NCBI GenBank assembly: GCA_019192455.1
Contig: JAHCML010000003.1
Location: 54,004-118,003, forward strand
DNA from: Alphaproteobacteria bacterium SS10
GTDB taxonomy: Bacteria > Pseudomonadota > Alphaproteobacteria > TMED2
Direction of reading: 5' to 3'
DNA: 64,000 bases
Under the pieces are notes generated by a model. It made no database searches. It was given only the letters and a program-made list of their open reading frames with translations, and had not been told where the DNA came from. This document shows positions 4,876 through 10,309 of the stretch, piece by piece. Position 1 is the first letter of the stretch. Each line of letters starts with the position of its first letter. A program made the translations under genes and the position numbers.

Positions 4876-5754
4876 ATGACCCCCGACGAGACCGCCCCAA
4901 AGACTGACACTGGCACCGCCGATCTGGCCGCTAGCAATGCCGCGAGCTTGGCCATGCCTGATGGTGATTTGGGGCCCCGTGTCCATGGCCGGGTTAACTG
5001 GATCGGGTTTTGGACGCTCTATGCCAAAGAGGTGAAGCGTTTCATCAAGGTCTATCTCCAGACCATTTTGGCGCCGGTGATCACCACGTTACTGTTCTAC
5101 ACCGTGTTTGCGCTGGCGCTTGATGCTGGGAACCGAAGCGTGGCCGGTGTGCCGTTTTTGGAGTTTCTGGCGCCCGGCTTGATCATGATGGGCATTACAC
5201 AGAATGCCTTTGCCAACACCTCCTCCACCGTCATTATCGCCAAGGTTCAGGGTAATATCGTTGATGTGCTTCTGCCGCCCTTAAGCTCGCTTGAGCTGGC
5301 CATGGGGTGGATTTTGGGCGGTGTTACCAGAGGCATCGTGGTCGGGCTATTTATCTATATCTCGCTCGTCATCTTTGTCGGTATTCCGATCCACAATCCC
5401 GGATTGATCCTGTTCCACGCGATTAGCGGATCGCTGTTGCTCTCCACCCTGGGTGTGATCGGCGGTATTTGGTCGGATAAGTTTGATCACATCGCTGCCG
5501 TGACCAACTTCATCGTTACGCCGCTGACCTTCTTGTCGGGCACGTTCTATTCAATCGAACGCCTGCCGAGTGAGTGGCAGTTCATGGCCCACCTAAACCC
5601 GGTTTTCTACATGATCGATGGGTTCCGCGCGGGCTTCATCGGCCATGCGGATGGTGACTTAACCACCGGCATCATCGTTGGCGTTGTGACCAATGCGGTT
5701 CTGCTTGTCCTGGCACTACGTATGCTGCAGAGCGGCTATAAGTTGCGACCATGA
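4876..5754 (+). CDS. ABC-2 type transporter permease
   Basis: This is an inner-membrane permease subunit of an ABC-2 exporter, 292 aa. About 45 hydrophilic residues precede six predicted helices. The conserved LAPGLIMMG and the block LTFLSGTFYSIERLP, followed by HLNPVFYMIDGFRAGF, are typical of the NodJ/YadH permease group. No ATP-binding subunit lies next to it: upstream is an intergenic gap and then an L,D-transpeptidase on the other strand. The gene overlaps the next one by 4 bases (ATGA), suggesting translational coupling. Substrate unknown; the ATPase partner must be encoded elsewhere. Confidence 0.92.
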   Translation: MTPDETAPKTDTGTADLAASNAASLAMPDGDLGPRVHGRVNWIGFWTLYAKEVKRFIKVYLQTILAPVITTLLFYTVFALALDAGNRSVAGVPFLEFLAPGLIMMGITQNAFANTSSTVIIAKVQGNIVDVLLPPLSSLELAMGWILGGVTRGIVVGLFIYISLVIFVGIPIHNPGLILFHAISGSLLLSTLGVIGGIWSDKFDHIAAVTNFIVTPLTFLSGTFYSIERLPSEWQFMAHLNPVFYMIDGFRAGFIGHADGDLTTGIIVGVVTNAVLLVLALRMLQSGYKLRP

Positions 5755-6722
5755 GTGATCAGGGGCGTTCGGTTGATAACGCCAAACCCGCCTTTAGTTT
5801 GAGCCCGGTCGGTTTTGCGCGCTGGGCCTATGGCACAGCACCGTTGCTGCTGTTCTGCACCATGATGTTTTGGGCAGGAAATGGGGTCGTCGGCAAATGG
5901 ATTGCCTTTGATGGCGACCTACCACCGGTCGCCGCTGCGTTCTGGCGCTGGAACCTGGCTCTCTTGCTGGTTTTGCCGCTCGCCTAGCGCCATCTGCCGG
6001 GCGATTTGCCCGCCATGCGGGCCAAGATTTGGCCGCTGATCCTATTGGCCGTGTTCGGGATTACCGCCTTTAACACCCTGGTCTATTGGAGCCAGTACAA
6101 AACAACGGCCGTGAACCTGTTCCTGTTGAACGCCACTGTGCCCCTGCTGATCCCGGCCTTCTCGTTTCTGCTGTTTCGCGACCGGGTTAATCGCTGGCAG
6201 GGGCTAGGCATCGCGCTTGCGATGGTGGGGGCGGTGACCATTATCCTGCAGGGGAATTTGGCGACCCTGTTAGACCTCACCGTTAATCAAGGGGATGCGG
6301 TAATCCTGTTAGCGATGGTTCTCTACGCTATCTACTCAACCTGTCTGCGGTTGAAGCCAAGCATTCACCCGATGTCGATGCTGGTGGCTCTGTTTGCCCT
6401 CGGCAACCTATTCATCCTGCCATTCTTTATCTGGGAGCATCTGTTCGTTGCGCAGATTGAGTTCACGCCAAAGACCATCATTGCTCTGATTTACATCGGC
6501 ATCTTCCCGTCCTTCCTCGCCTACCTCTTCTTCAATCGTGGGGTTGAGCTGATCGGTGCAAATCGCGCCTCGCTCTATTTCCACCTGATGCCGATTATGG
6601 GTACGGCCTTCTCTGTCATGCTCTTTGGTGAGCCATTTGCCGGGTATCATTTTGCCGGCACCGCCCTGATTGTTGTGGGTCTGATCCTTGGCACCCGTCG
6701 CCCAAAAGCATCGGCTGATTGA
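5751..6722 (+). pseudogene. EamA/DMT transporter with internal TAG stop
   Basis: This gene would encode a ten-helix drug/metabolite transporter of about 323 aa, but codon 79 (5985-5987) is TAG. The frame is open on both sides of the stop: residues 1-78 cover helices 1-2, and the rest runs to 6722 with helices 3-10 and normal EamA features. One base change from TGG (Trp) or CAG (Gln) would create it; Trp would suit the helix-2 exit. TAG is used as an ordinary stop by neighbours (for example at 22573 and 34222), so recoding is unlikely. An ATG at 6015 or a nearby GTG/ATG could restart a truncated protein. It may be a recent nonsense mutation, a sequencing error, or suppressed. Confidence 0.8.
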
Positions 6723-6872: not shown

Positions 6873-7853
6873 ATGTCGGATCTATCGGCCAAGCCACCAT
6901 CCAAGACGCCCGATGGGCGCATCATGAGCCAACAGAAGTTTCGTCTGATCACGCGAAGTGATTTTGACGGGCTGGTCTGCGCGGTTTTGTTCCGGGAAAT
7001 GGATATGATCGATGAGATCTTATTCGTGCACCCAAAGGATATGCAGGACGGCAAAATTCCGGTTAGCCGGCGGGATATCACCTGTAACTTGCCCTATCAG
7101 AATGGCGTCCATCTCTGCTTTGATCACCATGTGAGTGAGTTCTATCGCAACGAAGATAAGAACAACCATATCCTCGACCCCCATGCCGAAAGCGCGGCCC
7201 GGGTGGTTTACGAATATTACGGCGGCCGGACCCGGTTCCCTAATGTCTCCAACGACATGATGATGGCGGTCGACAAAGCCGACAGCGCAAATTTCACTGA
7301 GGAAGAGATCCTCGACCCGCAAGGTTGGGTGCTGCTGAGCTTCCTGATGGATGCCCGCACCGGCCTCGGTAGGTTCCGGAACTTCACCGTTTCGAACTAC
7401 CAGCTGATGCTGAAGCTCGTGGATATCTGCCGCGAATATAAGGATGTGGACGATATCCTCGCCCTGCCTGATGTTGCTGAGCGTGTGGACCTCTATGAGG
7501 AGCATGTCGAGAACTACATCAACCAGGTTCATGCCTGCTCTGAGAAGTATGACAACCTGATTGCTCTCGACCTGCGAGAGGAGGAAGTCCTCTACGCTGG
7601 TAACCGCTTCATCATTTATGCGCTCTTCCCGGAATGCGATGTGTCTATGCACATCATGTGGGGGCGGCAGAAGCAGAACACCGTCTTCGCGGTTGGTAAG
7701 TCGATTGTTAATAGGGACAACAAGTCGAATATCGGCAAACTGATGCTCGAATATGGCGGTGGCGGCCATGAGGCGGCTGGCACCTGTCAGATTGATAATG
7801 ACAAGGCCAACGAAACTATGGTCGAATTAATCGACCGCCTGACATCAGGCTGA
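6873..7853 (+). CDS. DHH family phosphoesterase
   Basis: This is a DHH/DHHA1 superfamily phosphoesterase, 326 aa, cytosolic. The N-terminal domain shows the metal-binding motifs RSDFDGLVCAV and CFDHHVSE (DHH), and the C terminus has the DHHA1-type GGGGHEAAGTC loop. Relatives act on oligonucleotides, cyclic dinucleotide products or polyphosphate; I cannot decide between these from sequence. The start at 6873 has GGAAGG about 7 bases upstream; an internal ATG at 6924 is less likely. It lies only 21 bases before the arginine-rich leader peptide, so a promoter for that leader may lie inside the end of this gene. Confidence 0.88.
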   Translation: MSDLSAKPPSKTPDGRIMSQQKFRLITRSDFDGLVCAVLFREMDMIDEILFVHPKDMQDGKIPVSRRDITCNLPYQNGVHLCFDHHVSEFYRNEDKNNHILDPHAESAARVVYEYYGGRTRFPNVSNDMMMAVDKADSANFTEEEILDPQGWVLLSFLMDARTGLGRFRNFTVSNYQLMLKLVDICREYKDVDDILALPDVAERVDLYEEHVENYINQVHACSEKYDNLIALDLREEEVLYAGNRFIIYALFPECDVSMHIMWGRQKQNTVFAVGKSIVNRDNKSNIGKLMLEYGGGGHEAAGTCQIDNDKANETMVELIDRLTSG

Positions 7854-7874
7854 TTTCGAGATTTTGAGACGAAC

Positions 7875-7967
7875 ATGTTGAGCGCAACAAACAGCACCAA
7901 CCGACGCCGTCGCCGCCGTATGGCCGCGACCGCTTTGGTGCTGCCTGGGTTCCGACGACGACGATAA
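7875..7967 (+). CDS. Arginine-rich leader peptide upstream of argD
   Basis: This is a 30-codon open frame, ATG at 7875 to TAA at 7965-7967. Ten of its 30 residues are Arg: a run of six (residues 10-15, 7902-7919, NRRRRRRM) and a run of four just before the stop (residues 27-30, 7953-7964, FRRRR). The last four are all CGA, a codon that is scarce in argD itself. A weak GAG-type ribosome site precedes the ATG. The position, between a stop codon and a strong hairpin that precedes the ornithine/arginine genes, fits a regulatory leader peptide whose translation senses charged tRNA-Arg. No homologue was searched; the function is inferred from layout. Confidence 0.75.
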   Translation: MLSATNSTNRRRRRRMAATALVLPGFRRRR

Positions 7968-8006
7968 CGTCATCCCAGTGTTTGTTTTTACCAATGGCCG
8001 GTCCGC
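7928..8006 (+). promoter_or_regulatory. Candidate antiterminator region of arg leader
   Basis: Short complementary segments found by eye could form a structure that competes with the terminator: CTGGG (7945-7949) with CCCAG (7974-7978), TTGGT (7935-7939) with ACCAA (7990-7994), and GACC (7928-7931) with GGTC (8000-8003). They are nested in the right order, and the last overlaps the 5' arm of the terminator. A ribosome stalled at the first Arg run would leave most of these free, while one reaching the stop codon would cover the CTGGG segment. This is inference without energy calculation. Confidence 0.45.
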
Positions 8007-8036
8007 ATCAATCCAGCGACCGGCCATTTTCTTTTT
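7993..8036 (+). terminator. Intrinsic terminator/attenuator before argD
   Basis: A perfect 11-bp stem AATGGCCGGTC (7993-8003) pairs with GACCGGCCATT (8018-8028) around a 14-nt loop and is followed by a U-rich run TTTTCTTTTT (through 8036). It lies 25 bases after the Arg-rich leader frame and 60 bases before the argD start. A strong terminator placed in front of a gene that must be expressed implies conditional readthrough. Confidence 0.85.
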
Positions 8037-8096
8037 CCACACCCGGTTCTTTTTCGAGCGCCGCAGTGCTATCGAACCCAATCAAGGACATAACCA

Positions 8097-9344
8097 ATGT
8101 CAGCCATTACAAAACCATCCGCCATGGCGACCAATACAGCGAACCAATCAGCAGGCAGTGAGCAGACCGATTTCCCACCGGTTATGCCAACCTATAACCG
8201 TACCCCATTGGCTTTTGAACGTGGGGACGGCGCCTACCTTTTCGCCACCGATGGCGAGAAGTACCTGGATTTCGCCGCTGGTATTGCCGTTAACGCCCTC
8301 GGCCATAATCACCCGCATCTGGTCGCAACCCTTAAGGATCAGGGTGAGAAGCTGTGGCACGTCTCAAACCTCTACCGCATTCCGGAGGCTGAGCGGCTGG
8401 CCGCCCGGCTAACCGCCGCGACCTTCGCCGATACGATGTTCTTTACCAATTCCGGGGCCGAGGCTTGGGAGTGCGGGGTGAAGGTCATCCGGAAATACTT
8501 CCACCATAAGGGACAGCCTGATCGGTATCGGATCATCTGTTTGGATGGTGCGTTCCATGGCCGGACCCTGGCTGGTATCTCCGCCACCCGCCAGGCCAAG
8601 ATGATTGAGGGCTTTGCCCCTCTCGTTGATGGCTTTGATGTGGTGCCATTCGGTGATCTGGCTGCGATTGAGGATGCAATTGGCCCCAACACGGCGGCAA
8701 TCCATTTGGAGCCTGTGCAGGGTGAGGGCGGTATTCGCCCGCTAGATCCCGAGTTCCTCAAAGCCGTCCGTGGCCTATGTGACCAACATGATCTGCTGCT
8801 CTATCTTGATGAGGTACAGTGTGGGATGGGCCGAACTGGCCGCCTGTTTGCCCATGAATGGGCTGGCATCACCCCCGATGTGATGTGTGCCGCAAAAGGT
8901 ATTGGCGGCGGCTTTCCGCTGGGGGCCTGCCTAACCACGGCCGAGGCTGCATCCGGCATGGTTGCCGGTACCCATGGCTCAACCTATGGCGGCAATCCGC
9001 TGGCAACCGCCATTGGCAATGCGGTGCTCGATGTGATGCTTGAGCCTGGCTTCCTTGATCAAGTGGTGGCCAAGGGTAAAGCGCTTCAAGAGGCGTTGAC
9101 CGGCCTGCACAACCAATTCCCGGTGATTGAAACCGTGCGCGGTAAGGGGCTGATGCTGGGCATCAAGCTTAAGGATGAGTTGCCCGCCGGTGACCTGGTC
9201 CAGGCACTGCGTGATCAGCATCTACTGACCGTGCCCGCAAGTGACAACACGGTGCGGATATTGCCGCCACTCACCATCGAACAAACCCATATTGATGAGG
9301 CGGTCGCCGCGATCGCTAAAGCGCTGGGAGCGCTGAGCCAATGA
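8097..9344 (+). CDS. argD: Acetylornithine aminotransferase
   Basis: This is a class III PLP aminotransferase that converts N-acetylglutamate semialdehyde to N-acetylornithine in arginine synthesis, 415 aa, cytosolic. Visible landmarks are the N-terminal [17 protein letters not shown] block, the GAFHGRT block, the PLP region [14 protein letters not shown] and the lysine-bearing [13 protein letters not shown]. The ATG at 8097 has AAGGA about 8 bases upstream; it carries about 20 more N-terminal residues than most homologues, so the ATG at 8124 is an alternative. It overlaps argF by 4 bases. Expression is probably controlled by the attenuator upstream. Dual use as succinyldiaminopimelate aminotransferase is possible, as in other ArgD enzymes. 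Confidence 0.95.
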
Positions 9345-10309
9345 CCATGATCCAACCTGGCCTGAAAGGGCGGCACTTCCTGGAAATCCGGGACCTGACG
9401 AGCGAACAACTTCGGCACCTGGTCGATTTGGGCGCGAGCTATAAAAAGGCGCTGAAAGCGGGGAAGGAAACCCCAACCCTTAAGGGTAAGAGCTTGGCGC
9501 TGATCTTTGAGAAATCATCGACCCGGACCCGTGTCTCATTCGATGTCGGCATGTTCCAGATGGGCGGCCACACGGTGAACCTGCTGCCCAACGACATGCA
9601 GCTGGGCCGTGGTGAAACTGTGCCGGACACGGCGCGGGTGCTCTCCCGTTATGTTGATGCCGTCATGCTGCGCACCGATATGCCGCGTAAGATGACCGAA
9701 CTGGCCGCACATGCCACGATCCCGGTGATCAACGGCCTGACCGATGACACCCACCCCTGCCAGATCATCGCCGACATCATGACGTTTGAAGAGCATCGCG
9801 GCCCGATCACCGGCAAGGTGGTTGCATGGACCGGCGACGGCAACAATGTGGCCGCCAGCTGGGCTGAGGCAGCGGTTAGACTCGGCTTTGAGTTTAGGCT
9901 TGCCTGTCCCGCCGAACTAGCGCCGCCCGCGTGGCTCACCGACTGGGTTGAGGGTGAGAAGGTGGCCGGTGCCACCGGCACGGTCACGGTCATGCATGAC
10001 CCCAAAGCGGCGGCGGAAGGCGCGGATTGCGTGGTTACCGATGCCTGGACTTCCATGCACCAGGAAGGAGATGGCATTCCCCGCAATCAACTCTTGGCAC
10101 CATTCCAGGTGGACGAGGCGTTGATGGCACTGGCGAAAGATGATGCACTATTCATGCATTGCCTGCCGGCACACCGGGGTGAAGAGGTCACCGACGCCGT
10201 TATTGAAGGCCCGCACTCCGTGGTCTTTGATGAAGCGGAGAACCGCCTACACTCGCAAAAGGGTATCTTGCACTGGTGCCTGCTGGGTGATGCGCCACTG
10301 GCGGTATGA
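9341..10309 (+). CDS. argF: Ornithine carbamoyltransferase
   Basis: This enzyme joins carbamoyl phosphate and ornithine to give citrulline, 322 aa, cytosolic trimer. The carbamoyl-phosphate loop [11 protein letters not shown] is intact, as are the HPCQIIAD segment and the C-terminal ornithine-site block [12 protein letters not shown]. The start codon overlaps the argD stop (ATGA), so the two are translationally coupled and likely share one mRNA. The argD-argF-hslO order recurs in alphaproteobacteria. Confidence 0.97.

Follow-up and report, generated by a model that had tools for sequence, protein, structure and literature searches.

A short open reading frame (ORF) with two runs of consecutive arginine codons, followed by an intrinsic terminator, lies upstream of the argD-argF operon in the window (the whole 64-kb stretch of DNA that was analysed). 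This element is interpreted here, with a probability of about 0.8, as an arginine-sensing transcription attenuator of the ribosome-mediated trp type. The sequence-only reading had proposed attenuation through charged tRNA-Arg, and this was the reading best supported by sequence, given the R4-containing leaders of Rhodobacteraceae, the leader of the metagenome-assembled genome (MAG) AP_23 (locus L013) and a switch whose pairing segments can be named. It is also fairly probable that argD-argF stand under arginine-specific leader-peptide attenuators in several alphaproteobacterial lineages without ArgR, with leaderless leader ORFs in Rhodobacteraceae.

Leader, terminator and predicted RNA switch in the window

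All window features described below are on the forward (+) strand. The leader ORF (7875–7967) has 30 codons (MLSATNSTNRRRRRRMAATALVLPGFRRRR) and the stop codon TAA. Its first Arg run (7902–7919, codons 10–15, CGA CGC CGT CGC CGC CGT) provides the sensing codons of the model, and the second (7953–7964, codons 27–30, CGA four times) is outside the model's account. The 30-codon frame with six and four consecutive Arg codons described previously was confirmed base by base. In dinucleotide shuffles of 7854–8096, an ATG-initiated ORF of ≤40 codons with R6 was found in 0/5000, with R4 in 12/5000 and with ≥10 Arg in 1/5000. On both strands of the window, the leader was the only short ATG ORF in which five or more Arg codons were consecutive, and the 3.19-Mb genome contained (CGN)6 at 8 distinct places, the leader among them. 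Since R6 did not appear in any of the 5000 shuffles and (CGN)6 is rare in the genome, a chance origin of the Arg-rich leader ORF is excluded. The rare codon CGA represented 5 of the 10 Arg codons of the leader versus 6/86 in five window genes near it (P = 3e-4).

Neither a clear promoter nor a clear Shine-Dalgarno site was found for the leader ORF, and the built-in promoter scan gave no matches. A weak candidate −35 element, CTGACA (7839–7844), accompanied by no good −10, would occupy the same position as in the leaders of Rhodobacteraceae. We infer that the leader is transcribed and translated and that it responds to arginine.

The intrinsic terminator (7993–8036) is separated from the leader by a 25-base spacer (7968–7992) and consists of an 11-bp stem, in which 7993–8003 (AATGGCCGGTC) pairs with 8018–8028 (GACCGGCCATT), a loop of 14 nt and a U-rich tail that reaches about 8036; the perfect hairpin with U-rich tail claimed at this distance was therefore present as claimed. 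The 7993–8028 hairpin was missed by the built-in terminator scan because the scan takes only loops of ≤8. The leader region, for which folding had been suggested as a check, was more stable than its shuffles (z = −5.1).

The genes downstream are argD (8097–9344), coding for acetylornithine transaminase (NF002325, TIGR00707), and argF (9341–10309), coding for ornithine carbamoyltransferase (TIGR00658), which overlap by 4 bases; the profile matches, above the curated NCBIfam cut-offs, bore out both identities given by the sequence-only reading. No Arg-rich short ORF was detected within 500 nt upstream of argG, argC and argH of the window genome. An EamA-family transporter gene at window positions 5751–6722 was interrupted by an in-frame TAG at 5985–5987; this split gene represents a pseudogene, a sequencing error or a recent mutation.

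Competing structures of the leader RNA were predicted by masked folding, in which the bases under the ribosome (15 upstream and 15 downstream of the first P-site base) were kept single-stranded. For a ribosome placed at Arg codon 10 or 12 on RNA extending to 8010, segment 2 (7928–7943) was predicted to pair through 7928–7939 with segment 3 (7990–8003), which includes the terminator 5′ arm (7993–8003), most pairs having p 0.8–1.0; the alternative structure that had previously been only postulated can thus be named, as a prediction. When the ribosome was placed at the stop codon, the predicted structures were the terminator and a 1:2 hairpin between segment 1 (7892–7900) and the 7935–7943 part of segment 2. 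Of 500 synonymous leader variants generated with local codon usage, 0.4% switched equally strongly and none (0/500) also equalled the strength of the 1:2 region, a null that was devised after the structure had been seen and is supportive, not pre-planned. In the full-length RNA the terminator beat the antiterminator in all ribosome states, the stalled ones included, and therefore the switch must be kinetic, with the antiterminator forming first. Masked folding with the ribosome stalled at codon 15 or within the second Arg run gave no antiterminator. Of the earlier claim of stalling in the Arg runs, the part on the first run fits the switch and the part on the second does not, as a stall there would block segment 2. 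A second, weaker terminator-like hairpin with a U-rich tract is predicted at 7945–7990; the hairpin itself (7945–7979) takes in the second Arg run as well as the stop codon, is followed by TGTTTGTTTTT and was predicted by masked folding to form in the stalled state.

In the proposed mechanism, a ribosome would follow RNA polymerase and translate the 30-codon leader. With ample charged tRNA-Arg the ribosome would reach the stop codon, segments 1 and 2 would pair behind it (7892–7900 with 7935–7943), the terminator 5′ arm would be left free and the 7993–8028 hairpin would form, stopping transcription before argD. With scarce charged tRNA-Arg the ribosome would stall in the first Arg run, at codons 10–12, and cover segment 1; 7928–7939 would then pair with 7990–8003, the terminator would be blocked and argD-argF would be transcribed.

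ArgR and arginine leaders in other Alphaproteobacteria

ArgR (PF01316) was found in 0/56 genomes of the class, namely the window genome and 55 others, while the control genomes were positive, and it has been reported to be absent outside gammaproteobacteria (PMC5343134). Both results contradict the earlier expectation that repressor control would be usual here; with no ArgR encoded in the window genome, its argD-argF operon does not belong to an ArgR regulon.

Conservation of the Arg-rich frame in relatives, which had been proposed as a check, was supported: an ATG ORF of ≤40 codons with at least four Arg codons in a row (R4) was located upstream of argD in 50/90 Rhodobacteraceae genera, where 50 shuffle sets gave an expectation over the 90 genera of 0.72 (mean) with a maximum of 3, and in 0/28 genomes from other families of the class. 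A separate set of 57 other genomes, all from different families of the class, contained no relative in the order of the window genome. A leader with an Arg run of ≥3 had been detected in a first scan at 33 named loci, mostly Rhodobacterales by name, minus-strand loci among L083–L108 having been taken in the wrong orientation in that scan. The argD leader of Thalassovita litoralis (MIKRTHITVIRRRRFSA) is an example.

The ATG of the Rhodobacteraceae leaders sits exactly at the predicted +1 of a promoter just upstream (TA at −12/−11, TTG or TTT near −36 to −34, and C at −1 in 85%). These ORFs look leaderless, because the ATG coincides with the predicted transcription start. CGA accounted for 38% of the Arg codons in these leaders versus 5% in their argD genes.

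In the Rhodobacteraceae leader RNA, the first codons form a duplex with a segment located past the stop codon, and the Arg codons form one that spans the stop. RNAalifold returned no structure on the sequence alignments because the pairings drift in position, and covariation was tested instead by matched-versus-mismatched duplexes. With species kinship kept in, mismatched segments equalled the matched ones in 0/20000 permutations for the pairing of the first codons with the post-stop segment, and likewise in 0/20000 for the argD-proximal hairpin; the pairing of Arg codons across the stop, matched versus mismatched, gave z = −3.7, also with kinship kept in. A covariance model of the Rhodobacteraceae argD leader RNA (R1), built from 14 loci, matched at the right place with E ≤ 0.01 in 34/90 loci, one of them in the training set. 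Searched against 61 whole genomes, it gave 17 matches, all (17/17) directly upstream of argD. The structure also beat shuffles and slid versions in the model-fitted alignment, a comparison that is biased, the alignment having been fitted to the structure. The terminator 5′ arm covaried with no upstream segment and the stall effect was marginal (0.306 vs 0.250, p = 0.048); therefore, the final step of the mechanism is only putative in Rhodobacteraceae, and no antiterminator is claimed for them.

The last 70 nt before argD in Rhodobacteraceae (for example L041, L063 and L080) contain a conserved TTGAC, 17–18 nt and GCACC. This motif overlaps the covarying argD-proximal hairpin and could serve as a second promoter, belong to the terminator, or do both.

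The alphaproteobacterial MAG AP_23 (L013) has an ATG ORF (MTYPTNKRRRSVRPRARLR) before argD, and 27 nt past its stop codon a terminator with a perfect 7-bp stem and TTTTTGTTTT, followed by argD; the Arg leader, the terminator and a predicted antiterminator extend from −236 to −120 relative to the start of the ArgD match. In masked folding, placing the ribosome at Arg codon 9 gave a terminator probability of 0.00 and placing it at the stop codon one of 1.00; 1.6% of synonymous recodings did as well. On these predictions, L013 would be a textbook version of an Arg leader attenuator, in a MAG unrelated to the window genome. Of the 13 best ArgD matches from 385 genomes, 10 (all but L211, L218 and L221) were inspected upstream, and none had a leader of the L013 type. 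Model R1 matched neither the window leader nor G000 nor L013; the window leader is alike in plan to the Rhodobacteraceae argD leader RNA and is not a member of it. The window, Rhodobacteraceae and L013 leaders are thus alike in plan, and convergence and deep divergence are both possible.

Among 61 argD loci that do not belong to the Rhodobacterales leader set and that include the window, 25 had a hairpin followed by a T-run upstream (6 expected). Such elements are common before alphaproteobacterial argD, and therefore the window hairpin alone is not independent evidence for a leader; the window terminator may be descended from one of them. A hairpin directly after a TTGAC promoter, with no Arg leader, was found in 15/59 argD loci (0.1 expected in shuffles). 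The combination of TTGAC, a strong hairpin and a U-rich tail was observed in L005, L065, L071, L086, L092, L093, L103, L109 and others, about 40–110 nt upstream of the start of the ArgD match.

Alternative explanations

The Arg leader might act on argD through Rho, through RNA decay or by changing how accessible the argD start is, and not through the 7993–8028 terminator. An Arg-rich leader would be conserved whatever its output, and speF orf34 is reported to sense arginine through its Arg codons, with outputs via Rho and RNase G (PMC6386406); the absent antiterminator covariation in Rhodobacteraceae and the terminator winning in full-length folds also agree with another output. Both the window and L013, however, have intrinsic terminators right after the leader with predicted competing pairings, which makes this explanation unlikely. 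It was also considered that the hairpin is the common, promoter-proximal hairpin-U element of argD, perhaps with a role in mRNA stability or translation, and that the Arg ORF encodes a small peptide, or arose by chance, and has no regulatory function. The frequency of such hairpins at alphaproteobacterial argD loci, including those directly after a TTGAC promoter where no Arg leader exists, agrees with this view, but the Arg run of the window is beyond chance, Arg leaders recur before argD in Rhodobacteraceae and in L013, and the R1 matches are restricted to argD; it is accordingly regarded as quite improbable.

The abundance of CGA, both in the window leader and in the Rhodobacteraceae leaders with respect to their argD genes, would be expected if the poly-Arg nascent chain or the CGA codons themselves stalled the ribosome, so that the general state of translation were sensed more than arginine. 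This is very improbable, given that the target operon makes arginine and that Arg runs at argD in at least three unlike leaders fit arginine sensing better. Finally, the leader shares the reading frame of the upstream DHH-family gene and begins 21 bases past its stop codon, as if the Arg-rich stretch were the C-terminal tail of that protein severed by a wrong stop codon. The DHHA1-like domain of the protein, a match below the Pfam cut-off, already extends to residue 323/326 and covers 99/102 positions of the profile, and the gene appears to end naturally; a severed tail would, moreover, leave the Arg leaders before argD elsewhere unexplained, and it is hardly credible. Ribosome-mediated attenuation in response to arginine is thus the preferred reading of the window element.

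Relation to known attenuators and biological meaning

The attenuators of the trp, his, leu, ilv, phe and thr operons of proteobacteria are ribosome-mediated. The window element shares with them a short leader ORF containing consecutive codons for the amino acid that the operon makes, a predicted intrinsic terminator between the leader and the first gene of a biosynthetic operon, and regulated genes (argD, argF) that make the sensed amino acid. It also shares exclusive 1:2, 2:3 and 3:4 pairings, here predicted, the exclusive antiterminator on stalling being obtained in silico only, for nascent RNA to 8010 and codons 10–12. It differs from them in its amino acid, arginine, which to our knowledge is not among the specificities of amino-acid leader attenuators. 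The window region had no match in Rfam up to E = 1 and 13 related loci had no relevant match, so that the window leader is not one of the known Rfam amino-acid leaders, and no precedent for an arginine biosynthetic leader was found in the open-access literature. The sequence-only reading, to which no such leader in alphaproteobacteria was known, agrees with both searches. The novelty concerns the amino-acid specificity and the target operon; the class of mechanism itself is old.

The closest published systems each differ in some respect. In Sinorhizobium meliloti, trpL/rnTrpL is a leader-peptide attenuator, reported to start on a leaderless ORF, that senses Trp (PMC10117765). It is alphaproteobacterial and the Arg leaders of Rhodobacteraceae are also predicted to be leaderless; in contrast, Arg and not Trp is concerned here. 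The leader uORFC-8-2 of cysS in Rhodobacterales, an order that also has Arg leaders, is likewise a predicted ribosome-mediated attenuator, with tandem sensing Cys codons and a terminator; it differs in the amino acid and in preceding an aminoacyl-tRNA synthetase gene, and argD is absent from the main text of that study (PMC8632094). The orf34 leader of Salmonella speF also uses consecutive Arg codons as an arginine sensor, but it has two Arg codons, precedes a polyamine gene and lacks an intrinsic-terminator switch (PMC6386406). In Pseudomonas aeruginosa, according to work cited in PMC4997734, carAB also has a leader peptide ahead of a gene required for arginine; unlike in the window model, its attenuation is attributed there to pyrimidines, and control by arginine is described as transcriptional. 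Arginine does not appear in the main text of a survey of premature terminators (PMC2965389).

No description of how Alphaproteobacteria without ArgR tune arginine synthesis was found in open-access papers. A leader switch before argD would explain this tuning in the lineage of the window, and a related leader would do so in many Rhodobacteraceae. If this is true, arginine joins the amino acids whose biosynthesis is sensed by ribosome-mediated attenuation.
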